Shown here piece after piece: positions 5,395-23,098 of a DNA stretch of 25,177 bases. A program made the position numbers and the translations under genes. Numbering within the stretch: position 1 is the first letter of the stretch; the number at the start of each line of letters is the position of its first letter. Below the pieces are notes generated by a model that was not told the origin of the DNA, made no database searches, and was given only the letters and a program-made list of their open reading frames with translations. Source of the stretch: a virus; IMG/VR virus record IMGVR_UViG_3300048818_000419, positions 1-25,177 of that record. One strand, written 5' to 3'.

Positions 5395-6039
5395 ATGGAC
5401 GAATCCCGCCTCCAGGATCGGATCAGTTGGGGCCTGAACGTCGCCGCGCGATCCGTTGGGGCACCCACGGATGCCTATCGACCTTCGGGCGCTATGGAGC
5501 CGCTGCGTCCTGTCAATCGGTTCCTTCGTCTGCGCGCCGCATTCAGTAACGTGCACGGAGGGTTCGAGCGACCTAACACCTATGATCACTCGCTATGGAA
5601 TGGCATCTTCGACTCCGCGTATACCCGCGTCGGAGACTACTTGGTGCAGCAGAGTGGCACCTGGTTCATTGCTGCTCAGCAATCTCTGATGCCGGTCCTA
5701 TGTGTCCGCGCAGATCGGATGGTATCGTTTACCCGTCCCGCCGCGCCAACCGCCAGCGGCGTGAATACGTATGGTGGGGTCACTACCGCAACCAACATGC
5801 CCCTGCTGACGAACTGGCCAGCCAGTGTCCGAGCTGCCTCAATCGGGGGGACCCCGTCAGCCGATCTTCCCGGCGATTCATCAGTGTCGCATTGGACCGT
5901 GCTACTGCCCGCCCAGCCTGATGTCGTCCTTCTCGTCGCCGATCTGATGACCGACGATCTAGGGCGCAATGCTGTTGTTTCGTCAGCAGAGTTGACGAAC
6001 CTGGGCTGGCGTCTTTCCGTCAAGCAGGCTGCGACCTGA
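5395..6039 (+). CDS. Putative head-tail stopper/neck protein
   Basis: The protein is 214 aa and starts directly after the preceding TAA. A helical N-terminus is followed by a segment with YTRVGDYLVQQSGTWFIAAQ (about residues 75-94). This reads like the beta-barrel core of head-closure proteins, which often hold a 'GD.l....g.wfv' pattern. The C-terminus (DLMTDDLGRNAVVSSAELTNLGW, about 182-204) is again strand-rich and ends in LSVKQAAT. Position between the connector-like and terminator-like genes fits a stopper that retains packaged DNA. Family membership is not certain. The TGA at 6037-6039 overlaps the next ATG by one base. Confidence 0.55.
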   Translation: MDESRLQDRISWGLNVAARSVGAPTDAYRPSGAMEPLRPVNRFLRLRAAFSNVHGGFERPNTYDHSLWNGIFDSAYTRVGDYLVQQSGTWFIAAQQSLMPVLCVRADRMVSFTRPAAPTASGVNTYGGVTTATNMPLLTNWPASVRAASIGGTPSADLPGDSSVSHWTVLLPAQPDVVLLVADLMTDDLGRNAVVSSAELTNLGWRLSVKQAAT

Positions 6040-6857
6040 TGGCAGACGAATCCGATGTGGAGAACGCACTGGTCGCGCTAGCTTCGGCTGCTCTCTACCC
6101 GAGCGGCACCAACTCACCAAGCGTTCCGGGACCTGATTGTCGTATTTATCGAGGCTGGCCGAGCTCGGCTGCGCTCGACGCAGACCTTACCGCGGGGCGG
6201 ATCAACGTCACGGTGTTTCCCGCGGCCGGCCACGCGCGCACCACAACGCGATACACCCAAAACCGGTGCGGCAGTCCGACTCAACCGACTCTAACCGCGT
6301 CGGTATCAGGTACCTCAGTGACGTTCGGGGGTTCCGCGGTCCTCGGCCAAGTGGTCGGAATTCTCGTTGGCGGCCAAAGTGGCGAAAGTTATGCCTACCG
6401 TATTCAACCCGGCGACAGTCCGGCCCTGGTTGCAGCTAACTTGGCAACTCTAGTCCGAGCAAATGCAATCGTTCAATTGTCGGGCTCCACGCTAATTATT
6501 CCCGGCACCGGCGACTTGATAGCCCGCGTGGTCGCGGACGGGTCCGCTCAGCAGGAGATTCGACGACAAGAACAGATCTTTCGTGTTACCTGTTGGTGTC
6601 CAACACCGATGTCGCGTGACGCAGCAGCTATTGCAATCGACTTGGCACTCGCACAGTCGGTATTTATCACTCTTTCCGACGGCTCGATGGGCAAGCTGAC
6701 CTACACCGGAACGACCGCGTTCGATCAATCTCAGGACGCGCTGCTCTATCGTCGCGACCTGCTGTACCAGGTTGAGTACCCGACTATCATCAGCACATCG
6801 CCACCGGCGATGTTGTTTGGTGACTTGTTGCTGAACGCGGCCAATTTCACGGCCTGA
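6039..6857 (+). CDS. Putative tail terminator/completion protein with inserted beta-domain
   Basis: The protein is 272 aa in a TGATG overlap with the gene before. Residues about 1-75 (LVALASAALYPSG, IYRGWPSSAALDADLTAGRINVTVF, TTTRY) and about 169-252 (EQIFRVTCWCPTPMSRDAAAIAIDLAL, LLYRRDLLYQVEYPTI) read as two halves of a tail terminator-like alpha/beta fold. The middle segment, about 81-168, is strand-rich (TLTASVSGTSVTFGG, VVGILVGGQSGESYAYRI) and looks like an Ig-like or LysM-like insertion displayed on the neck. The final 20 residues are a hydrophobic tail. Immediate placement before the sheath operon supports a role at the top of the tail. The split-fold reading is inference; relatives I remember are annotated only as hypothetical phage proteins. 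Confidence 0.6.
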   Translation: MADESDVENALVALASAALYPSGTNSPSVPGPDCRIYRGWPSSAALDADLTAGRINVTVFPAAGHARTTTRYTQNRCGSPTQPTLTASVSGTSVTFGGSAVLGQVVGILVGGQSGESYAYRIQPGDSPALVAANLATLVRANAIVQLSGSTLIIPGTGDLIARVVADGSAQQEIRRQEQIFRVTCWCPTPMSRDAAAIAIDLALAQSVFITLSDGSMGKLTYTGTTAFDQSQDALLYRRDLLYQVEYPTIISTSPPAMLFGDLLLNAANFTA

Positions 6858-6871
6858 TTTTCGGAGAACCC

Positions 6872-7021
6872 ATGAATATCCACTTGATTGTGGTAAAGCC
6901 ATTTGATGGCCTCGCCCGCGGTGATACGGTCACCGATCCAACGCGTATTGCGCAAGTTCTCAACAGCGAATGGGCGCACTCTGTGGTACGCGTTCTCGCG
7001 GCGCCCGCGAAAAAGGATTGA
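6872..7021 (+). CDS. Small pre-sheath protein, 49 aa (DUF2635-like position)
   Basis: This small gene is easily overlooked. ATG at 6872 has a GGAG ribosome site at 6863-6866 with a 5-nt spacer, and the TGA at 7019-7021 overlaps the sheath ATG by one base. The 49-aa product begins MNIHLIVVKPFDGLARGDTV and ends AAPAKKD. A short protein starting with a 'VKP..G..' pattern directly upstream of the sheath gene is the arrangement of Mu gp38/DUF2635. The length, spacing and opening residues agree, though I cannot confirm homology. The function of that family is not established as far as I know. A tight ribosome site at one end and stop/start coupling at the other make chance unlikely. Confidence 0.7.
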   Translation: MNIHLIVVKPFDGLARGDTVTDPTRIAQVLNSEWAHSVVRVLAAPAKKD

Positions 7022-8589
7022 TGTCTATGCCGATCTTTCAACAAGGCAGCCTTAACACCACCGCATTGGTGGTGCCGGATCTCTATGTTCAGATAGTCCC
7101 ACCACAAAATCTCGTACTGAATGGTGTGCCGACAAATGTCGTCGGCGTGGTTGGTACCGCCTCGTGGGGAGCCGCCAGCCAGCCCGTAATTGTGGCCACT
7201 ATGGGCGATTACGCGGCTAGCTTTGGCCCCGTCATTGCCCGCCAATATGACATGGGCACTCAGGTCGCGACGGCTGTACAGCAGGGCGCGCAGAACTTCC
7301 GGTGCGTTCGCGTCACCGACGGTACCGATACGGCCGCCCAGGTCGCGGTCCCCAACACGACATTTACGTTTACCGCGTTGTATACCGGCTCACTGGGAAA
7401 CCAGGTTGTGCTGGCACTAAACGCTGGTTCCCAGGCCAACACGTGGCGTCTGACGACACTCCTCCCCGGGCTTCAGCCCGAACTATATGATAACATTGGA
7501 GGGTCAGGAGCGGCTTTCTGGACAGCACTGGCCGATGCGGTCAATCGGGGGCAGGGCCCGCAGCGTGGTCCGTCTCAGCTTGTGATTGCGAGCAGCGGTG
7601 GTGCTATAGCCACCCCATCCAGCTTTGCCATCACGCTTGGTGCCGGAACAGCGGGGTCCGATGGAGCAACTGGTGTCGCCGCAAGCCAGCTCGTAGGCTC
7701 GGATGTACCGCCCAGGGCCGGCATGTACGCGTTGCGCGGTCAGGGCTGCGGCATCGGCCTTCTGGCAGACGCTACTGATGCAACCCAGTGGACGACACAG
7801 GCCGGATTCGGTCTGCAAGAGGGCGTTTATATGATTTTGACCGGACCACCCGGCGATACAATTCAGAACGCGGTCAACGTCAAAGCCCAGGCCGGCCTCG
7901 ATAGCTATGCTGCCAAGCTCATGTTTGGCGACTGGCTATGGTGGTCCGACCAGGTCAATAACGTTGTTCGATTGGTGTCGCCGCAGGGCTTCGCGGCCGG
8001 CCGCCTGGCGAACCTGTCTCCGGAGCAATCCAGTCTTAATAAGCAGCTTTATAGTGTCATCGGCAGTCAGAAATCCGGAACACCCGGGTCGGGTCAATCA
8101 ACTTCTTATTCTTCGGCCGATCTCGCAGTCCTGATCGGGGCCGGCATTGATGTTGTCAGCAATCCTCAGCCTGGTGGAGCATATTGGGGTGTGCGCGCGG
8201 GGCACAATTCGTCTTCAAACCTTGCCACCAACGGAGACAACTACACGCGCCTCACAAACTATCTTGCTGAGACCCTTGCTGCCGGAATGGGCCTGTTCGT
8301 CGGGCAATTGATCAATGCGACCCTGTTTCAACAAATTCGAGCAACGCAACTTGCCTTTTTGCAGAACATGTTCAACCAGGGCATTCTGGGAAGCGCCGAC
8401 GGGAGCCTTCCCTTCAGCGTAATCTGCGACACCTCAAACAATCCTGCCAGCCGCACCGGCCTTGGGTATGTTCAATCCGATGCCCAGGTTCAGTATCAGT
8501 CGATCAACGAGAAGTTCGTTGTGAACATCGAGGGCGGCCAGACTGTTGTAGTGTCCGTTCAGACGCTGCCCAACGGGCAACCGACGTAA
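7021..8589 (+). CDS. Contractile tail sheath protein
   Basis: The protein is 522 aa. It polymerises around the tail tube and contracts on infection. The N-terminal region GVPTNVVGVVGTASWG (about residues 35-50), followed by PVIVATMGDYAASFGP, is the typical sheath opening. The C-terminal part (INATLFQQIRATQLAFLQNMFNQG, then INEKFVVNIEGGQTVVVSV) matches the conserved sheath handshake domain. I chose the ATG at 7021, which overlaps the preceding stop. An ATG at 7027 is equally plausible and has the better distance (9 nt) from AAGGA at 7013-7017. A longer in-frame ATG at 6970 lies inside the preceding small gene and lacks a good site. The tail tube gene follows after 12 bp. Confidence 0.93.
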   Translation: MSMPIFQQGSLNTTALVVPDLYVQIVPPQNLVLNGVPTNVVGVVGTASWGAASQPVIVATMGDYAASFGPVIARQYDMGTQVATAVQQGAQNFRCVRVTDGTDTAAQVAVPNTTFTFTALYTGSLGNQVVLALNAGSQANTWRLTTLLPGLQPELYDNIGGSGAAFWTALADAVNRGQGPQRGPSQLVIASSGGAIATPSSFAITLGAGTAGSDGATGVAASQLVGSDVPPRAGMYALRGQGCGIGLLADATDATQWTTQAGFGLQEGVYMILTGPPGDTIQNAVNVKAQAGLDSYAAKLMFGDWLWWSDQVNNVVRLVSPQGFAAGRLANLSPEQSSLNKQLYSVIGSQKSGTPGSGQSTSYSSADLAVLIGAGIDVVSNPQPGGAYWGVRAGHNSSSNLATNGDNYTRLTNYLAETLAAGMGLFVGQLINATLFQQIRATQLAFLQNMFNQGILGSADGSLPFSVICDTSNNPASRTGLGYVQSDAQVQYQSINEKFVVNIEGGQTVVVSVQTLPNGQPT

Positions 8590-8601: not shown

Positions 8602-9030
8602 GTGGCGCTTACCAATTTTTCCGTTGGCCGGGATACACAGTTGATTGTTTTGGGTCCCGCCGGTCGCGTCGATCTCTCGTATGTCACCGGGTTTGAAGCA
8701 CGCCAGCTAACATACGCGGTACGAGTGGACCGGCTCGATGGTACTCAGATGGGGGCTGAACTTCCCAAAGGCTGGGAAGGCGCCTTCGAAATCGAGCGGG
8801 GCGATTCCGCTGTCGACGACTTCATCGCAGCTTCGGAGCAGCAATTCTACAATGGCAGCACAGTACCCGCCGGCACAATGTATCAGTATGTATCCGAGAC
8901 AGACGGGTCAACGTCTACTTACTTGTATGACGGCGTGACGTTTAAGCTGACCAGCGCTGGTCAGTGGAAGGGCGACAGTGGCGTCAAGCAGAAGTTGGAG
9001 TTCTTCGCCACACGCCGGATGCGCATCTGA
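8602..9030 (+). CDS. Tail tube protein
   Basis: The protein is 142 aa. It forms the rigid inner tube of the contractile tail. GTG start at 8602 has AAGGAG at 8588-8593 with an 8-nt spacer, overlapping the end of the sheath gene. The sequence is a compact beta-barrel type protein (LIVLGPAGRVDLSYVTGFEARQ, GWEGAFEIERGDSAVDDF, TFKLTSAGQWKGDSGVKQ) like Mu gpM and P2 FII-type tubes, and its length is typical. Position after the sheath and before the tail chaperone is the standard order. The TGA at 9028-9030 overlaps the next ATG by one base. Confidence 0.88.
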   Translation: MALTNFSVGRDTQLIVLGPAGRVDLSYVTGFEARQLTYAVRVDRLDGTQMGAELPKGWEGAFEIERGDSAVDDFIAASEQQFYNGSTVPAGTMYQYVSETDGSTSTYLYDGVTFKLTSAGQWKGDSGVKQKLEFFATRRMRI

Positions 9031-9377
9031 TGAGTCCCTCAGCCACGATTATCTCCGCCGCCACGGCCGCTCCTACTGTTACCGACAGGTTGGGTCGGCG
9101 GTTGACGCTCCGCCGTATGACGTCACTTGACAAGCTCCGCTTGTTCAAGGCGGCCGGACCGGTCCTCGCGCATAATCAGCCCTGGCTTGGTATGGCGATG
9201 CTCGCTTGCTCGGTGGCCGAAATTGACAGCGTGCCTGTCCCGGCACCGACCAATGAGCAGCAGATCGAGTCGATGGTCGCGCGTTTGGGCGATTTGGGGA
9301 TTGCCGCCGCTGCTGAGGCGCTCGGGGGGCAGCTCGACGTTACCCACGCAGACACGATGGCCGCGGCGGGAAACTGA
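9030..9377 (+). CDS. Tail assembly chaperone, zero-frame product (lambda gpG-like)
   Basis: The protein is 115 aa from ATG 9030, in a TGATG overlap with the tube gene. Residues about 14-30 (VTDRLGRRLTLRRMTSL) lead into a helical domain (KLRLFKAAGPVLAHNQPWLGMAML), then an acidic/alanine-rich C-terminus. This is the usual composition of G-type tail assembly chaperones, which bind the tape measure and recruit tube subunits but are absent from the virion. The gene ends GCG GGA AAC TGA, so a GGGAAAC heptamer lies directly before the stop. A longer in-frame reading from 8964 would overlap the tube gene and has no support. Context between tube and tape-measure position is diagnostic. Confidence 0.85.
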   Translation: MSPSATIISAATAAPTVTDRLGRRLTLRRMTSLDKLRLFKAAGPVLAHNQPWLGMAMLACSVAEIDSVPVPAPTNEQQIESMVARLGDLGIAAAAEALGGQLDVTHADTMAAAGN

Positions 9378-9547
9378 GCAGGCACCCCGATCTGGTTGAC
9401 TGTCTGTTCTTGGTCAGGAACGGGGTGCCCTTGGATGTGGCATTTAGTCTGCCGCCCGACGAACGGCTTGCGTGGATCGTGGCGCTCGGCACGATCGATG
9501 GTAGGGAGTTTGATTGGCACAACCTATGCTGGAAGGAGCGCAGGTGA
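9030..9547 (+). CDS. Tail assembly chaperone G-T fusion made by -1 frameshifting
   Basis: If ribosomes slip back one base on GGGAAAC (9368-9374), translation resumes with CTG at 9374 and stays open to the TGA at 9545-9547. This adds 57 residues and gives a 172-aa product. The extension begins LSRHPDLVDCLFLVRNGVPL and ends DWHNLCWKERR. It reads like the T domain of G-T chaperones, with a 'VRNGVPLDVAFSLP.ER.AW...LG...G..FDW' pattern. The extension has no useful start codon of its own, so it makes sense only as a frameshift product. Its stop overlaps the GTG of the next gene (GTGA, 9544-9547), so that gene would be coupled to the shifted frame. In lambda, the G-T form makes up a few percent of product and links tube subunits to the tape measure. 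Confidence 0.85.
9368..9429 (+). promoter_or_regulatory. Programmed -1 ribosomal frameshift signal (slippery site and stem)
   Basis: The slippery heptamer G GGA AAC (9368-9374) is in the correct register for the XXXYYYZ rule and ends directly at the zero-frame TGA (9375-9377). After a 6-nt spacer, GGCACCCCG (9381-9389) pairs perfectly with CGGGGTGCC (9421-9429): 9 bp, 7 of them G-C, enclosing 31 nt. Inside the loop TTGAC and GTCAG can form a further short stem. Lambda G/T uses GGGAAAG, one base different. Spacer length is within the range known for stimulatory structures. Confidence 0.88.
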
Positions 9548-9918
9548 TCTCGATTGGCGGCCTGAAGGCGTTCGCGGATCGATTATCCTGCCTCGGTGTT
9601 GGGCATACCGAAACAGATGCGCTGGAGCAGGCGGCACGCGACCTGGAGGCGACCGTCAAGGCAATAGCGGCATCGCCGGCTGATGAGGGTGGCGCGAGCC
9701 GACGCGGGCGAGCGACTGCGACTGCGGCGGTTGTATCGCATCGCGTAGACGAGCACTCCGCTGTAATTGGGTCGGCCGATTCAGTGGCGGTAACGAGGGA
9801 GTTAGGGTCCGCCGGAAGACCACCCGATCCCTTTCTGGGTGTGGCAGGTCGGCAATCAGGGCCTGCCATAGCGGAGCGCATTGGCCAGATATTCGCTCAA
9901 CTAATGTCAGGGTTATGA
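9544..9918 (+). CDS. HK97 gp10-like neck/minor tail protein
   Basis: The protein is 124 aa from GTG 9544. This start has GGAAGGAG at 9531-9538 with a 5-nt spacer and overlaps the frameshifted chaperone stop as GTGA. In-frame TTG 9514 and ATG 9526 lie upstream of the ribosome site and are less likely. A helical N-terminus (GGLKAFADRLSCLG, ALEQAARDLEATVKAIAA) is followed by a Gly/Ala/Arg-rich linker. The C-terminal half (AVIGSADSVAVTRELGSAG then PPDPFLGVAG, and a last helix) resembles the 'VGS.....v.ElGt...pP.PFL.pA' signature of HK97 gp10/tail-completion proteins. In other phages such genes usually sit before the tube gene; here it lies after the chaperone, so the role is less certain. Confidence 0.55.
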   Translation: MISIGGLKAFADRLSCLGVGHTETDALEQAARDLEATVKAIAASPADEGGASRRGRATATAAVVSHRVDEHSAVIGSADSVAVTRELGSAGRPPDPFLGVAGRQSGPAIAERIGQIFAQLMSGL

Positions 9919-9919
9919 A

Positions 9920-10939
9920 ATGATTGACGCTTATACAATCGGCATCACCCTGGCTCTGGACAACGGTGTATCGGAGGGGCTGGCGACCATCCGCCGGGAT
10001 CTTCTCGCGCTGAATGGTGTTGTCGACAGCAGTGCGACACGTTTGAAGCATTTGACGCGCGCCGCGGCCGATCTGCAGGTTCGCCCCGGTGTCGCCGAGC
10101 TGATTAACACGGGATCGACCGCACCTGCTCGTGGACGTGATGACAAGTCTATTCCACTTCCCCTTGATCCGTTCCGTGTCGATCCGGGCTTGTTTGCTTC
10201 GAACCACTCGGACCTGCTTATGGCAGCCAGAAGCCCTACGCCTGTATTTTCTCTTCCTGCTGCAATGTCGATGTTCACTCTTCGTGCGTCCCAGGCCACC
10301 GCAGAGGTTGAAACGGCGCCGGCAAATCGCCCTGACATGACACCGTCGGACGTCCTGTCACTAAAGCCCGGTGTTTTGAGGTCGGTGCCGGGCATGAGTC
10401 AGCAAGTGGGTAATGGCGCGACGATCGCCGATTTCGGCCCGGTCCGCTATCCGCTGCAAATTCCGTCTCCCACGACGGCTCGTGTCGCGCCCCGGGATGA
10501 ATCAGGAGATGACCTGTTCATGAGCCCTGGTACCACCCCGCCGCCAGCCGTTATTACCGACGCGGATTCGCGATTGTCACTGCCTAAAGCAGCGAATATC
10601 TCGGCGCCATTACCCGGGAAACATCCCGCCTTGCATCCGTCACCACAGTGGGCAGCCGGATCGCAAGTGGGTTTTTCGCAGGGCGCGCGTGCATCCCCGT
10701 ACGATGCGGGTGCCTGGGCATGTTCCCCGAGCGCCAATGAGGCCTTGCCATCGGCAACTCCATTACCGACGGAGCGGCAATCGACTGCATTGCAAGGCGA
10801 CATTTATGTCGACGGCTCGCGGCTTGGGCGGTGGATGACTGATCGCCTTGTCAAGGCAGCTGACCTACCGCGGGCGGCTACAACCGGGTTCGATCCTCGC
10901 ATGACGGCTACGTGGCCTGGTGCGCCGGTCGGCGCTTGA
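9920..10939 (+). CDS. Short protein in tape-measure position
   Basis: The protein is 339 aa and starts one base after the preceding stop. The N-terminal 50 residues (MIDAYTIGITLALDNGVSEG, then LATIRRDLLALNGVVDSSATRL) look like the helical start of tape measure proteins from related phages. The C-terminus (GDIYVDGSRLGRWMTDRLVKAA) also resembles the end of tail proteins in this slot. The middle, about residues 70-290, is proline-rich (about 38 prolines in all by my count) and low in predicted helix. That is unlike a normal tape measure, which is long and helical with membrane segments. No other gene between chaperone and baseplate could serve. It could be a true short tape measure, a degenerate one, or a chaperone-bound initiator. 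Confidence 0.5.
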   Translation: MIDAYTIGITLALDNGVSEGLATIRRDLLALNGVVDSSATRLKHLTRAAADLQVRPGVAELINTGSTAPARGRDDKSIPLPLDPFRVDPGLFASNHSDLLMAARSPTPVFSLPAAMSMFTLRASQATAEVETAPANRPDMTPSDVLSLKPGVLRSVPGMSQQVGNGATIADFGPVRYPLQIPSPTTARVAPRDESGDDLFMSPGTTPPPAVITDADSRLSLPKAANISAPLPGKHPALHPSPQWAAGSQVGFSQGARASPYDAGAWACSPSANEALPSATPLPTERQSTALQGDIYVDGSRLGRWMTDRLVKAADLPRAATTGFDPRMTATWPGAPVGA

Positions 10940-17797: not shown

Positions 17798-17919
17798 TGA
17801 ATCGATCGTCGGGGATGGCCCGTTCAGACCACTCTGTGCTGGTTCCCGTCTCACATCTGGTTTGCCAATCGGCAACAATCATCCTTTCTGGAGCTGTGCC
17901 CGAATATGCCCACGATTGA
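17797..17919 (+). CDS. Candidate small ORF, 40 aa, coupled to the adaptor
   Basis: ATG at 17797 overlaps the adaptor stop as TGATG, and the frame runs 40 codons to a TGA at 17917-17919, overlapping the start of the next fibre gene (17906) by 14 bp. The product begins MNRSSGMARSDHSVLVPVSH and continues through ATIILSGAVPEYAHD. Overlap with stops at both ends is the same arrangement as at other junctions in this operon. Without it, the 108 bp here would be an unusually long empty gap. It is short and has no ribosome site of its own, so the call is tentative. I do not recognise a family. Confidence 0.45.
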   Translation: MNRSSGMARSDHSVLVPVSHLVCQSATIILSGAVPEYAHD

Positions 17920-20881
17920 TCAACTGGCACCGGCAACCGCTGCGGCTGACACCGATGAATTTATGGTTAGCCAGAGCGGAATCGCCCGTTCAGTCACGCG
18001 CGCTCAGATTCTGGCCGGCGTTCAACCGCAGTTGTCTGTCGCGAGCGGGGCGTTGCTGGGTGGCCCGAGCACCGGAACTGGCGGCCCAGCGCAGGTCGCC
18101 GTCGGGGCCAACTTGGCTCTCACCTCCGGGACCCTGAGCGCCGCGGCAAGCAGTTTTGTCGTGTCGACGTTGCCCGCGGGCAATGTACCGGCCGCGACGG
18201 ATAGCGTGCCGATAGGTCAAGCTAGCACCAACGTTGCCGTGACCTACGCGCAATTCTTGAGTGGCCTGCCGGGTGCTACGAACGTCGATGGATCTCAACT
18301 GCTGGTGACGGCGACTGGCAGCTCGGCACATCAGAGACTGGCCGATTTCGTCGCGGCCACCCTGCCAAAAGCTGGCGGAACATTGACCGGGCCTCTCAAC
18401 TTGGCTAGCGACCCGCAAGTCGGACTGCAGGCCGCAACCAAAGAGTATGTGGACACGCGCGTGTTCCGCGCCGGAGACTCGTTGACCGGGCCTTTGATGT
18501 TGGTAGGGGACCCTTCAACGGCGTTGCAGGCCGCAACCAAGGAGTATGTGGACACGCGCGTGTTTCGCGCCGGAGACTCGTTGACCGGGCCTTTGGTGTT
18601 GGCGGGGGACCCTTCCACGGCATTGCAGGCGGCGACCAAGGAGTATGTGGACATGCGCATGTTCCGCTCCGGGGACTCGTTGACCGGGCCTTTGGTGTTG
18701 GTAGGGGATCCTTCAACCGCATTGCAGGCAGCGACCAAAGAGTATGTAGACACTCGCATGTTCCGCTCTGGGGATACAATGACTGGTCTCCTGGTGTTAT
18801 CGGGAGACCCTGCCGTCCCGCTCGGGGCAGCTACACTGGAATACGTTACCGGACAAGTAACAAAATCCTTGCTTACCGCCGGCGGGACGATGACCGGCCC
18901 CCTTACCCTTTCGGCGAGTCCAACCGTTGCACTTCAGGCGACGCCCAAGCAATACGTAGATGGGCTGGTAGCAACAACGCTTTCGTTGTTCGGGGGAACT
19001 CTGAGCGGCTCCCTGTCATTGGCCGCGAATCCGTCGGGCACGATGCAGGCTACGACAAAGCAATATGTGGACGCCCAGGTCGGTATGGCGTTGCCGCTGG
19101 CTGGCGGTACTCTTATCGGGCCCGTCACTTTACCGTCCAACCCCACTACAGCGTTACAGGCCACTCCCAAGCAATATGTTGATACCCAAGTAGCAACAAC
19201 ACTGCCATTGGCAGGCGGCACATTATCCGGTTATCTAACGCTGACCAGCATCCCCACGAGCAGCCTACACGCGGCGACTAAATCCTATGTGGACGTGAGA
19301 GTCCAGAAATCCGGCGATACGATGACCGGACCCCTGACGATGAGTGCGTCGTTCACTGGATCTGGCGTACCCACTTTACTTGCGGTGACGAGAGGCCAGA
19401 GCGCGGTTGGGGACGGTCCGCTTGTTAGCGCCGCTATGACGCTGGCCTTTGCAGGTGGCGCCGGTTCATCGAATACGAATACCCTGCTTACCACTACCGT
19501 CGGCAGCAGTCTGAACGCTAGCGGCAATGCCGTTGATGGTCCGGGCACGGAAGTCTATTCGCTAGTAAGTTACCTGAACTCATCTGCGTTACGTCCGCTT
19601 GGTGTGTCTCCGGTTGCCGCCCAGCATGTCGCAATACAGTCGGCGCCCACACGCAGCTTGCCGCCCGGTGGCGTCCCGGTAGGCCGGCAGATGGCGGAAC
19701 TTTGGGCTCTCTGGTTGCCCGCCGTTGATGAAACTAACCTGCCATCGTCGATCGCGAACTCCTTGGTAGGAAATGAAACAGACCTTAACGCGAACAATGT
19801 TGACGATGCTAACGCGCGGTCTGGCCTCCTGCTCTGTGCAAACGAAGCAATATCGTTAGCGTCGGGCGGATATCCACTTGAATGGGCTAACGGTATCGCA
19901 ACTACCACGAGCGCTACGTCTCAGTTCAAGTGGATGCTAAACCTCCAAGGTAACTACTCCATCGCCGTAATAGATACCCGCAGTGCATTCCCAAACGGCA
20001 CCGCGGGCGCAGCACCCCAAGTCACTACCTCTCTGACGAGCCCCGTTGCCAGCATCCACGTAAGTAACGTCCTACCTTTCACCTCGGCAGGCGTGTATGG
20101 CAAACCTGTCTCAGCGTCCAATACGTCGCAAGTCAAAATAGGATTCGATACGTACACGCAAACGGGGTATAGTTTTGATGGCGCAGGGCTGCAGTCCGGA
20201 ACCTTAACACTTTCGACCTCAGTCTCGGTTGCTGACGGCGCGTCCGGAAATCTGGTTACTAATTCGAGCAGGACCATATGGCTGGCCACGGGGCAGCAGA
20301 TCGCGTTTGATTACGGCGGATTGATAAATACCTTCTATGACACGAGCATCAGCGCTCTTCATATCACCAGCACCATTTTCGCCGATGGTGGCTTGCTCCT
20401 CGACCACAAAAGCAATACCACCTTGTATTGGGATAGTGCCGCCTTCGGTTCTTCTGGTGGAGGACACCTGCAAGGCAATCTCTTGGTTAGTGGTACGCTG
20501 TATAGTCCGACCGGCTTAACCGTAGGCGGGGCGTCATACCTGGGCGGTCCTGTGACTGCCAGTAGTACCGCGACGTTTTCAGGCACGAGCACGTTTCAGG
20601 GTGCAGTGTCGATGAACGCCGGGCTGACAGTCTCCTCAGGTACACTTGTTGCCAAAGGCAGCGCGTCGGTCATGGGCAGCTTATCCGTTGATGGCGGCAC
20701 GATCGGCCTCCCAACCTATCCCGTGGCGACATTACCGGCGACCGTGGCCGGAGGCCTGGCTTATGCGACCAACGGTCGCAAGACTGGCGAGGCGGCCGGG
20801 GCAGGCACTGGGATCCTGGTCGTAGGAGGCAGTAGCGGCCAATGGATATCGGTGATGAGCGGAACGACCGTCCTGGCGTAG
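17906..20881 (+). CDS. Long tail fibre with 33-37-residue tandem repeats
   Basis: The protein is 991 aa with ATG at 17906 and GGAG at 17890-17893. The N-terminus (MPTIDQLAPATAAADTDEFM and on to about residue 80) is shared with the next fibre and probably attaches to the tail. A second module (LPAGNVPAATDSVPIGQAST) precedes about nine full and one partial repeats at about residues 155-482, with consensus (S/A)GDSLTGPLVLxGDPSTALQ then AATKEYVDxRxF. This matches phage tail fibre repeats (Phage_fiber_2-like). Residues about 482-850 are a non-repetitive beta-rich shaft. The C-terminus is again repetitive (LTVGGASYLGG, GTSTFQGAVSMNAG, GLTVSSGTL) and ends with a tip (NGRKTGEAAGAGTGILVVGG). No intramolecular chaperone domain is seen. 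Confidence 0.85.
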   Translation: MPTIDQLAPATAAADTDEFMVSQSGIARSVTRAQILAGVQPQLSVASGALLGGPSTGTGGPAQVAVGANLALTSGTLSAAASSFVVSTLPAGNVPAATDSVPIGQASTNVAVTYAQFLSGLPGATNVDGSQLLVTATGSSAHQRLADFVAATLPKAGGTLTGPLNLASDPQVGLQAATKEYVDTRVFRAGDSLTGPLMLVGDPSTALQAATKEYVDTRVFRAGDSLTGPLVLAGDPSTALQAATKEYVDMRMFRSGDSLTGPLVLVGDPSTALQAATKEYVDTRMFRSGDTMTGLLVLSGDPAVPLGAATLEYVTGQVTKSLLTAGGTMTGPLTLSASPTVALQATPKQYVDGLVATTLSLFGGTLSGSLSLAANPSGTMQATTKQYVDAQVGMALPLAGGTLIGPVTLPSNPTTALQATPKQYVDTQVATTLPLAGGTLSGYLTLTSIPTSSLHAATKSYVDVRVQKSGDTMTGPLTMSASFTGSGVPTLLAVTRGQSAVGDGPLVSAAMTLAFAGGAGSSNTNTLLTTTVGSSLNASGNAVDGPGTEVYSLVSYLNSSALRPLGVSPVAAQHVAIQSAPTRSLPPGGVPVGRQMAELWALWLPAVDETNLPSSIANSLVGNETDLNANNVDDANARSGLLLCANEAISLASGGYPLEWANGIATTTSATSQFKWMLNLQGNYSIAVIDTRSAFPNGTAGAAPQVTTSLTSPVASIHVSNVLPFTSAGVYGKPVSASNTSQVKIGFDTYTQTGYSFDGAGLQSGTLTLSTSVSVADGASGNLVTNSSRTIWLATGQQIAFDYGGLINTFYDTSISALHITSTIFADGGLLLDHKSNTTLYWDSAAFGSSGGGHLQGNLLVSGTLYSPTGLTVGGASYLGGPVTASSTATFSGTSTFQGAVSMNAGLTVSSGTLVAKGSASVMGSLSVDGGTIGLPTYPVATLPATVAGGLAYATNGRKTGEAAGAGTGILVVGGSSGQWISVMSGTTVLA
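18368..19355 (+). repeat. Tandem fibre repeats, 99-bp period in the central copies
   Basis: Inside the fibre gene, repeat units recur every 99 bp (33 codons) in the first half and every 105-111 bp later. Copies 2 to 4 (about 18470-18766) are nearly identical in DNA as well as protein, for example TTGACCGGGCCTTTG in each. Later copies keep only the protein pattern (GGT-LTGPLTL-P-ALQATPKQYVD). High identity in the central copies points to recent duplication and allows unequal recombination that would change fibre length. Confidence 0.85.
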
Positions 20882-20929: not shown

Positions 20930-23098
20930 ATGCCAACGATTGGTCAATTACCGTCGCTTTCTGCAGTTGACCCTGCCGATGAGATCCCACTTAGCCACGG
21001 CGGCATGACGCAATCGATAAGCGTTGGTACGCTGCTGTCTGGTGTGCAGCCAGCGATCCTGGCGCCCACGGGCACATTACTCGGCCGGGAAAGTCTTGGA
21101 CTGGGCGGGCCCGAATCCATTAGTGTCGGGGTAGGGCTTGGCCTGCAGTCCTGCGTTCTGGCCGCAACCGGCGCGGATCACGCAAGTTTTCCGAGCCAGA
21201 CGGTCCTTGAACCGTCTGATCAGGCTGTGCTCAGTTCGGGCGGCTCACCCATGCTGCTCGAGCTATCACTCCTGCGCGGACTGTTTTCCGCTGGCAGCAA
21301 CATTGCTATTAGCTCGGCTGGAACCATCTCTGCGACGGGCAGCGCCACATCCAGCGGCGTCAGCGGCGCCTCCTATAGCATCGCTGACTTGCCGGTCGTG
21401 ACGACAATTTCCACGGGGGATCTGGTTGGAATTAGTCAGAGTGGCTCCGCCGATTCCATTACCTACCAGAATTTTCTGAACGGGCTGACCATCAACGACG
21501 CGCAGCCCGCCGCTGCAGCATCAAACAGCGATACTACTTGGGTCGCGCAGGCTAGCGACACAATGGTCTGTCAGACCTTTGGCGCCATATGGGCATGGAT
21601 AGTGTCTAATCAACCGAGTTACAAATATCCCGTAGTCGAGATAACTACAAGCACGACGCTGGATGGAACAGTACACAACGGGAGAATTCTTGTGTGCAGC
21701 CAACCGATCACATTAACGCCGGTGTTTGCCAATATGGGATCCGGCTTTGCGTGTAACGTTATCAATCTGAGCGGAGCCAATGTGACTTTCGGCGCTGGTA
21801 TCGTGAGTTCGTCGGGGACATCGGTTCTTCCCTCGGGCCTCTCGTGCATGATGCAAGGCGTGTCGTATTCAGGTGGCAGCGTCATCTATGCGTCGGTCTC
21901 GGGTGGTGTAACTCAGAGTATCGAAACTATACCGGGCGCCGTCACCGGTGTTGTCATTACCGGGGTTTCAAGCGATGGGGCCTCGTTGGCTTGGGTGGCA
22001 CCTGCCTCGGGAGGTTCGGTTACGAGCTATAACGTGCAATACCAGGCGAGCGGAGCGACAGCCTGGAGTACGGCAAATTCAGCCGTCATCGGCACAAGTT
22101 ATAACATTTCGAACCTCCAGGCATCCACCACCTATGACTTTGTGATATTTGCTGCGAATTCCGCCGGATCCGGTCCATCGTCTAGCGTGGTCACGGGGGC
22201 CACCGCCGCAGCGGCTGGCGTTCTTCCCGGCCAGATTACCGGGTTTACCGTCAATGCGCCAACCAGCACGACTCTTTCCCTCGCATGGTCTGCACCCGGT
22301 GTCGGGACCACTCCAATCAGCTATACGATCAGCTATCGACCAACCGGCACAACGGCATGGACGACATATGCATCCGGTCTTTCGGGCACGGCAACCATCG
22401 TAACCAGCCTTTCGGCGAGCACCAGCTACGACTTTGAGGTATTTGCTAACAATTCCGCCGGATCCGGTCCATCCTCTAGCGTTGTCACGGGAGCCACCGC
22501 CGCAGCGGTGGGTGTTGTTCCCGGGCAGGTCACCGGGCTTATTGCCGGTGCGCCAACGGACACGACTCTTTCCCTCACATGGTCCGCACCCAGCGTCGGG
22601 ACCACTCCGATCAGCTATACGATCAGCTATCGACCAACCGGCACGACGGCATGGACGACATATGCATCCGGCCTTTCGAGCACGGCAACCAGCGTAACCG
22701 GACTTTCGGCGAGCACCAGCTACGACTTTGAGGTATTTGCAACCAATGCCTTGGGGAATGGGATGCCGTCGTCCGTAGTCTCGCAAAGTACGGCCGCGGC
22801 CGGTATTTCGGTGACCGCGATCACATGGAATGCCCCCCCGTCGGGTAGCTACACGCATGGTAGCGGCCAGATCGGCGTGAACGCCAAAATCACACCGTCC
22901 AATGCTCCGGTTCAGTTTGGGTTTTGGACGTCGCCAACGACCCCACCGGCCAATTGGACCCAGGCGTCCTACGTCAATACCGATCTCTGGGGCGCCTACG
23001 TCAATAACCCGGCGACTCCGGGAACCTGGTATGCCTGGGTTGAAGGTACGAACGGCAGCCTACCAACGGTATACCCGACTCCTTTTACGGTGACCTAG
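20930..23098 (+). CDS. Tail fibre with three fibronectin type III domains
   Basis: The protein is 722 aa from ATG 20930. The first 80 residues (MPTIGQLPSLSAVDPADEIP, IAPTGTLLG-like segment, GLGGPESISVGVGLGL) are paralogous to those of the preceding fibre. Residues about 145-330 contain a second copy of the LPVVTTISTGDLVGISQSGS-type module and a beta-rich domain. Three FN3 domains follow at about 335-430, 433-530 and 531-626, each with a conserved W (SLAW or LTWSAP), a Y of SYTISYR and the TSYDFEVFA motif. The end (ISVTAITWNAPPSGSYTHGS and on) is a separate tip domain rich in Trp and Pro, a probable carbohydrate-contact region. The stop TAG abuts the next ATG. Confidence 0.85.
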   Translation: MPTIGQLPSLSAVDPADEIPLSHGGMTQSISVGTLLSGVQPAILAPTGTLLGRESLGLGGPESISVGVGLGLQSCVLAATGADHASFPSQTVLEPSDQAVLSSGGSPMLLELSLLRGLFSAGSNIAISSAGTISATGSATSSGVSGASYSIADLPVVTTISTGDLVGISQSGSADSITYQNFLNGLTINDAQPAAAASNSDTTWVAQASDTMVCQTFGAIWAWIVSNQPSYKYPVVEITTSTTLDGTVHNGRILVCSQPITLTPVFANMGSGFACNVINLSGANVTFGAGIVSSSGTSVLPSGLSCMMQGVSYSGGSVIYASVSGGVTQSIETIPGAVTGVVITGVSSDGASLAWVAPASGGSVTSYNVQYQASGATAWSTANSAVIGTSYNISNLQASTTYDFVIFAANSAGSGPSSSVVTGATAAAAGVLPGQITGFTVNAPTSTTLSLAWSAPGVGTTPISYTISYRPTGTTAWTTYASGLSGTATIVTSLSASTSYDFEVFANNSAGSGPSSSVVTGATAAAVGVVPGQVTGLIAGAPTDTTLSLTWSAPSVGTTPISYTISYRPTGTTAWTTYASGLSSTATSVTGLSASTSYDFEVFATNALGNGMPSSVVSQSTAAAGISVTAITWNAPPSGSYTHGSGQIGVNAKITPSNAPVQFGFWTSPTTPPANWTQASYVNTDLWGAYVNNPATPGTWYAWVEGTNGSLPTVYPTPFTVT
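21932..22800 (+). repeat. Three FN3-encoding DNA repeats, 294-bp spacing
   Basis: The second and third FN3 units are nearly identical DNA offset by exactly 294 bp (98 codons): CTATACGATCAGCTATCGAC occurs at 22321 and at 22615. The AATTCCGCCGGATCCGGTCC stretch near 22158 recurs near 22452. The first unit is much more diverged except at its last third. The pattern suggests recent duplication and a domain boundary that can move by recombination. Confidence 0.85.

Follow-up and report, generated by a model that had tools for sequence, protein, structure and literature searches.

Frameshifted G-T tail assembly chaperones are described as general in tailed phages (Xu 2004, as cited in PMC5009743). 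In phage lambda, a -1 frameshift at G_GGA_AAG, near the end of gene G, yields G-T as a minority extension of the short product G. In phage Mu, gp41 and its frameshift product FS-gp41 are likewise encoded in a myovirus tail module. Related slippery heptamers have been predicted in several other phages: GGGAAAC directly before TGA in gp18/gp19 of Burkholderia phage KL1 (PMC3483164), AAAAAAC in Caulobacter phage phiCbK and GGGAAAC in Caulobacter phage Colossus (PMC3556154), and G_GGA_AAC in HCTV-1 (PMC5009743). Experiments on two chaperone genes from another cluster measured 6-7% frameshifting (PMC3711429), and annotated tail-chaperone sites lie on average 26-36 nt from the stop (PMC10885494).

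The window analyzed here is a 25,177-nt stretch of viral DNA (IMG/VR record IMGVR_UViG_3300048818_000419, positions 1-25,177). One of its prophage genes carries a cassette that most probably (about 0.93) directs programmed -1 ribosomal frameshifting for the production of G and G-T type tail assembly chaperones; slippage itself, how often it happens and the proteins that G and T would bind are inferred. The locus resembles lambda in its probable gene order, in a predicted short product with a minority extension and in an X_XXA_AAZ slippery site close to where G ends. Unlike in lambda, the heptamer ends in AAC, the stop codon touches it and a conserved 9-bp hairpin follows, and the profile searches that were run detected no sequence similarity between the two systems. 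Mu FS-gp41 weakly matches the structural model of G (E 0.07, TM 0.56), whereas its sequence is unlike (14% over the aligned part). KL1 has in common the heptamer, the abutting stop and a gene interposed ahead of the tape measure gene; it is, however, a siphovirus, and its products are longer (142 and 264 aa). Between them, phiCbK and Colossus use both heptamers of the Acetobacteraceae family described below, and do so in phages of Alphaproteobacteria, but they belong to a different phage lineage. The whole cassette is present in an isolated phage, Komagataeibacter phage phiKX1 (LC644975), as AAAAAAC TGA GCA GGCACCCCG; phiKX1 has the same gene family and the same gene order, and the final position, that of the tape measure candidate, is taken by a protein of 743 residues.

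Anatomy of the cassette

The cassette and the genes from 8602 to 10939 lie on the plus strand. Gene G (9030-9377) encodes a short product of 115 aa, and its ATG overlaps the stop codon of the preceding gene. The slippery heptamer GGGAAAC occupies positions 9368-9374 in the zero-frame phase G_GGA_AAC, which is the phase needed for a tandem -1 slip, and is abutted by the zero-frame TGA at 9375-9377. A 6-nt spacer, TGAGCA, separates the heptamer from a stem whose arms are GGCACCCCG (9381-9389) and CGGGGTGCC (9421-9429), forming nine Watson-Crick pairs around a 31-nt loop. The original prediction, which placed GGGAAAC directly before TGA with this spacer, is right to the base; its suggestion that the 31-nt loop of the 9-bp stem may fold further agrees with RNAfold, which predicts exactly that stem and, within it, an inner hairpin (-27.4 kcal/mol).

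The -1 frame is open from position 9317, so that an in-phase X_XXY_YYZ heptamer at the end of the G gene is combined with an open -1 frame. The T extension (9374-9547) runs from CTG (9374-9376) to AGG (9542-9544), followed by TGA (9545-9547), and the GTG of the next gene (9544-9546) overlaps this stop by 4 nt as GTGA; the 57 codons and the GTGA overlap claimed beforehand are thereby borne out. In 86 of 103 relatives, the T stop lies within ATGA, GTGA or TTGA. The predicted fusion protein would read ...AAAGN-LSRHPDL... across the G/T junction. The extension had also been claimed to have no start codon of its own. This holds for ATG, or for a start located before the conserved residues, but not for GTG and TTG, which occur in the -1 frame downstream of the heptamer (e.g., GTG at 9425-9427).

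In the proposed mechanism, most ribosomes would terminate at the TGA, giving the 115-residue chaperone G. A minority would be held up by the 9-bp stem, their two tRNAs would slip back from GGA-AAC to GGG-AAA, and translation would resume for 57 codons to produce the 172-residue G-T. If lambda is a guide, G would bind the tape measure protein, as would the G portion of G-T, the T part would recruit tail tube subunits, and then both G and G-T would leave.

Taken singly, the window gives little statistical weight to these elements: GGGAAAC occurs six times against 2.8 expected, and the single-sequence fold of the stem region is unremarkable (z -1.6). As neither the heptamer alone nor this fold is significant, whether the site is a chance occurrence is decided by conservation. 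The window contains no Rfam family.

Conservation of the heptamer and the abutting stop

The G protein served as the sole query against viral contigs, genome contigs and 147 related genomes; with phiKX1 (locus L054), the relatives comprise 203 loci, two of which are cut off, leaving 201 readable. A broader viral-contig scan reported 360 relatives, and the best 80 of 360 were kept. Named hosts of the relatives include Acidisphaera, Acidisoma, Acidiphilium and Rhodopila. A G match in genome G108 (L066, E 2.8e-4) was dropped, as the strand that was read showed neither a G frame nor a T frame. Because records are partly repeated between searches and the relatives are not independent, the counts given here are descriptive.

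The original prediction would have been contradicted by close relatives that had lost the heptamer or the open -1 frame, and it withstands this check. An X_XXY_YYZ heptamer is kept in 198 of the 201 readable relatives, and the -1 frame is retained in nearly all of them. The heptamer touches the zero-frame stop in 181 of the 201, and in 17 others the stop follows 3 to 39 nt later (at 18 nt in 15 of these). An intact heptamer is missing from three loci (L048, L239 and L323), of which L323 has GGGAAC, one base short. In L048 (G001 contig 29), the T-like frame is +1 relative to G and begins with its own ATG, preceded by GGAG about seven bases before; T may there be made separately or via a +1 shift.

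Among 139 unique stop-abutting sequences, GGGAAAC is found in 110, AAAAAAC in 28 and GGGAAAT in one. The six-A run of the second form would also suit transcriptional slippage, by which mRNAs of altered length would fuse G and T, but the commonest form contains runs of three only, and such slippage needs no RNA-selected stem at a fixed distance (see below), making this explanation extremely improbable compared with ribosomal frameshifting. The preference for these heptamers is seen also in a viral-contig scan with a partial pattern (AAACTGA, a short spacer and the stem) in which the first three heptamer bases were left free. At least 108 distinct cassettes were recovered; among the matches listed, the free bases are GGG in 85, AAA in 23 and any other triplet in none, and the geometry is constant (59 nt in 107 of 108). 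When the cassette pattern was searched in 385 genomes of the class, the sole match was the window's own genome, with none in the 384 others.

In 15 loci (L272, L297, L303, L325, L203, L206, L208, L214, L219, L225, L229, L230, L232, L233 and L243), a synonymous Leu change abolishes the abutting stop; zero-frame reading there continues to a TGA located 18 nt past the heptamer and just beyond the 5' stem arm. The abutting stop was considered as a sign of a special mechanism and set aside: CTG also predominates at two further positions with a conserved Leu (69/91 and 70/103; 26/99 at a third), so that codon preference may explain much of the abutment. It is considered unlikely that the phages of Acetobacteraceae have a distinct frameshift design defined by Asn AAC in the A site and a stop touching the heptamer. 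If such a design exists, slow termination or a property of the host tRNA would help to set the ratio of G to G-T.

Selection on the stem and on the -1 frame

Conservation of the stem, which the original prediction had proposed checking across related phages together with the heptamer, was assessed in 103 representatives, all selected for a heptamer that abuts the stop. The 3' arm encodes an invariant Gly-Val-Pro of T, and its Gly and Val codons are GGG GTG in all 103, the fourfold synonymous sites being frozen, while between four and six alternatives occur at neighboring codons for Leu, Val and Ala. Stem pairs are kept in 98% of cases, compared with 36-49% when the partner is slid. In a codon-shuffle control, the median z is -2.9, and 37 of 40 sequences are at or below 5%, i.e., more stable than their own shuffles. 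From these alignments and controls, the stem is judged to be selected as RNA. The inner hairpin is conserved in part only, and, as the stem itself is nearly invariant, there is little compensatory change to count. In one metagenome-assembled sequence (L241, from base 388), GGGAAAC is kept, the Gly-Val codons of the old 3' arm are relaxed to GGC ATT and a different strong GC-rich hairpin lies directly 3' of the heptamer, which appears to represent a natural stem swap.

Conservation of the site is accompanied by selection on the protein that the -1 frame would encode. For codons between the stem arms in 60 representatives, pN/pS is 0.22 in the -1 frame and 1.46 and 1.34 in the other two frames; the -1 frame between the stem arms is under purifying protein selection. 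Two motifs, LSRHP directly after the heptamer and GVP, are conserved throughout the alignment.

These data bear on whether T could instead be a separate small gene, started within the overlap at a GTG or TTG, or through translational coupling downstream of the G stop, without any frameshifting. The GTG within the Gly-Val-Pro codons is invariant (103/103), T in L048 lies in the +1 frame with an ATG of its own, and in phiKX1, in contrast to the present locus, the annotation treats T as a hypothetical protein in its own right (6022-6201) starting from an internal ATG, the frameshift site preceding it being left unannotated. However, codons 8-16, upstream of the invariant GTG, are constrained as protein (the pN/pS of 0.22), and the conserved LSRHP residues come right after the heptamer. 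Before GVP, the -1 frame has no ATG in 93 of the 103 representatives and no ATG, GTG or TTG in 44; an internal start common to the family is hard to reconcile with these counts. A separate gene would also leave the conservation of the heptamer unexplained, and this alternative is considered highly improbable; programmed -1 frameshifting from G into T would account for the heptamer as well.

The tail module and the identity of G and T

The cassette is located within a tail gene cluster ordered as sheath, probable tube, G/G-T, one small gene and a tape-measure-like gene. The sheath gene (6970-8589; phrog_23, E 2e-45) directly precedes a gene for a probable tail tube protein of 142 aa (8602-9030), which matches phrog_12993 (unknown function, E 3.7e-41) and whose tube role is suggested by position. 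Downstream of T, the gene with the overlapping GTG start (9544-9918, 124 aa) matches phrog_5, 'tail completion or Neck1' (E 6e-4). It is followed by a gene for a 339-aa protein (9920-10939), for which no family match was found. Tape measure proteins have conserved ends and a variable middle; in relatives of the 339-aa protein, both ends are kept and the middle varies in length, and together with its position this makes it a probable short tape measure protein. If so, a tape measure of 339 aa would mean a short tail. Further along the window, 17906-20881 and 20930-23098 encode long tail-fibre-like proteins with repeats, as seen in their translations, including LQAATKEYVDTRVFRAGDSLTGPL units and fibronectin-III-like units.

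G belongs to phrog_20383, a family of unknown function (E 8.8e-21), and phrog_508 (tail assembly chaperone) weakly matches 6 of 17 members of the G family (best E 0.0023). An AF2 model of G made with 75 sequences has a pLDDT of 85.9; it replaced a poor single-sequence model (pLDDT 49.7). A fold search with this model gave a single strong match, to a phage protein that carries no name, and matches that are each weak when taken singly; these include Mu FS-gp41, several annotated chaperones and a tail assembly chaperone of a Rhodococcus phage. Foldseek against the PDB gave nothing convincing, and a second look at the PDB gave two middling matches, YqbN (Z 4.6), presumably an XkdN-like chaperone, and PICI ORF19 (Z 4.1). 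The identification of the products as G and G-T tail assembly chaperones, as originally proposed, is a sequence-based assignment supported by the gene position, the weak phrog_508 match and weak fold matches that include Mu FS-gp41 and YqbN.

The frameshift might be real and the protein be another tail factor using the same trick. Neither G nor T has a strong family match, the phrog_508 match is weak and the gene following T shows a weak likeness to a connector protein, all of which would be compatible with such a factor. Against this, the gene sits between the probable tube gene and the tape-measure-like gene, and both the protein size and the weak fold matches, including Mu FS-gp41 and other tail assembly chaperones, point to a chaperone; a different tail factor is thus regarded as improbable. 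For the 57-residue T extension, no convincing relative was found in Pfam, PHROGs or PDB. T domains diverge strongly, and the lack of a library match therefore does not exclude T identity. The predicted T domain, absent from PHROGs and Pfam, would be new.

The mechanism itself is already known; what appears to be new is the breadth of the family, the T domain missing from the libraries and the near-universal stop abutment. Hundreds of related phages of Acetobacteraceae carry the signal, which offers an annotation rule for such genomes. The family also provides a clean test set for frameshift predictors, consisting of AAC-ending sites with the stop at distance 0. Overall, several hundred phages and prophages from a single bacterial family share a predicted frameshift cassette whose conservation is seen both at the protein level and at the RNA level.
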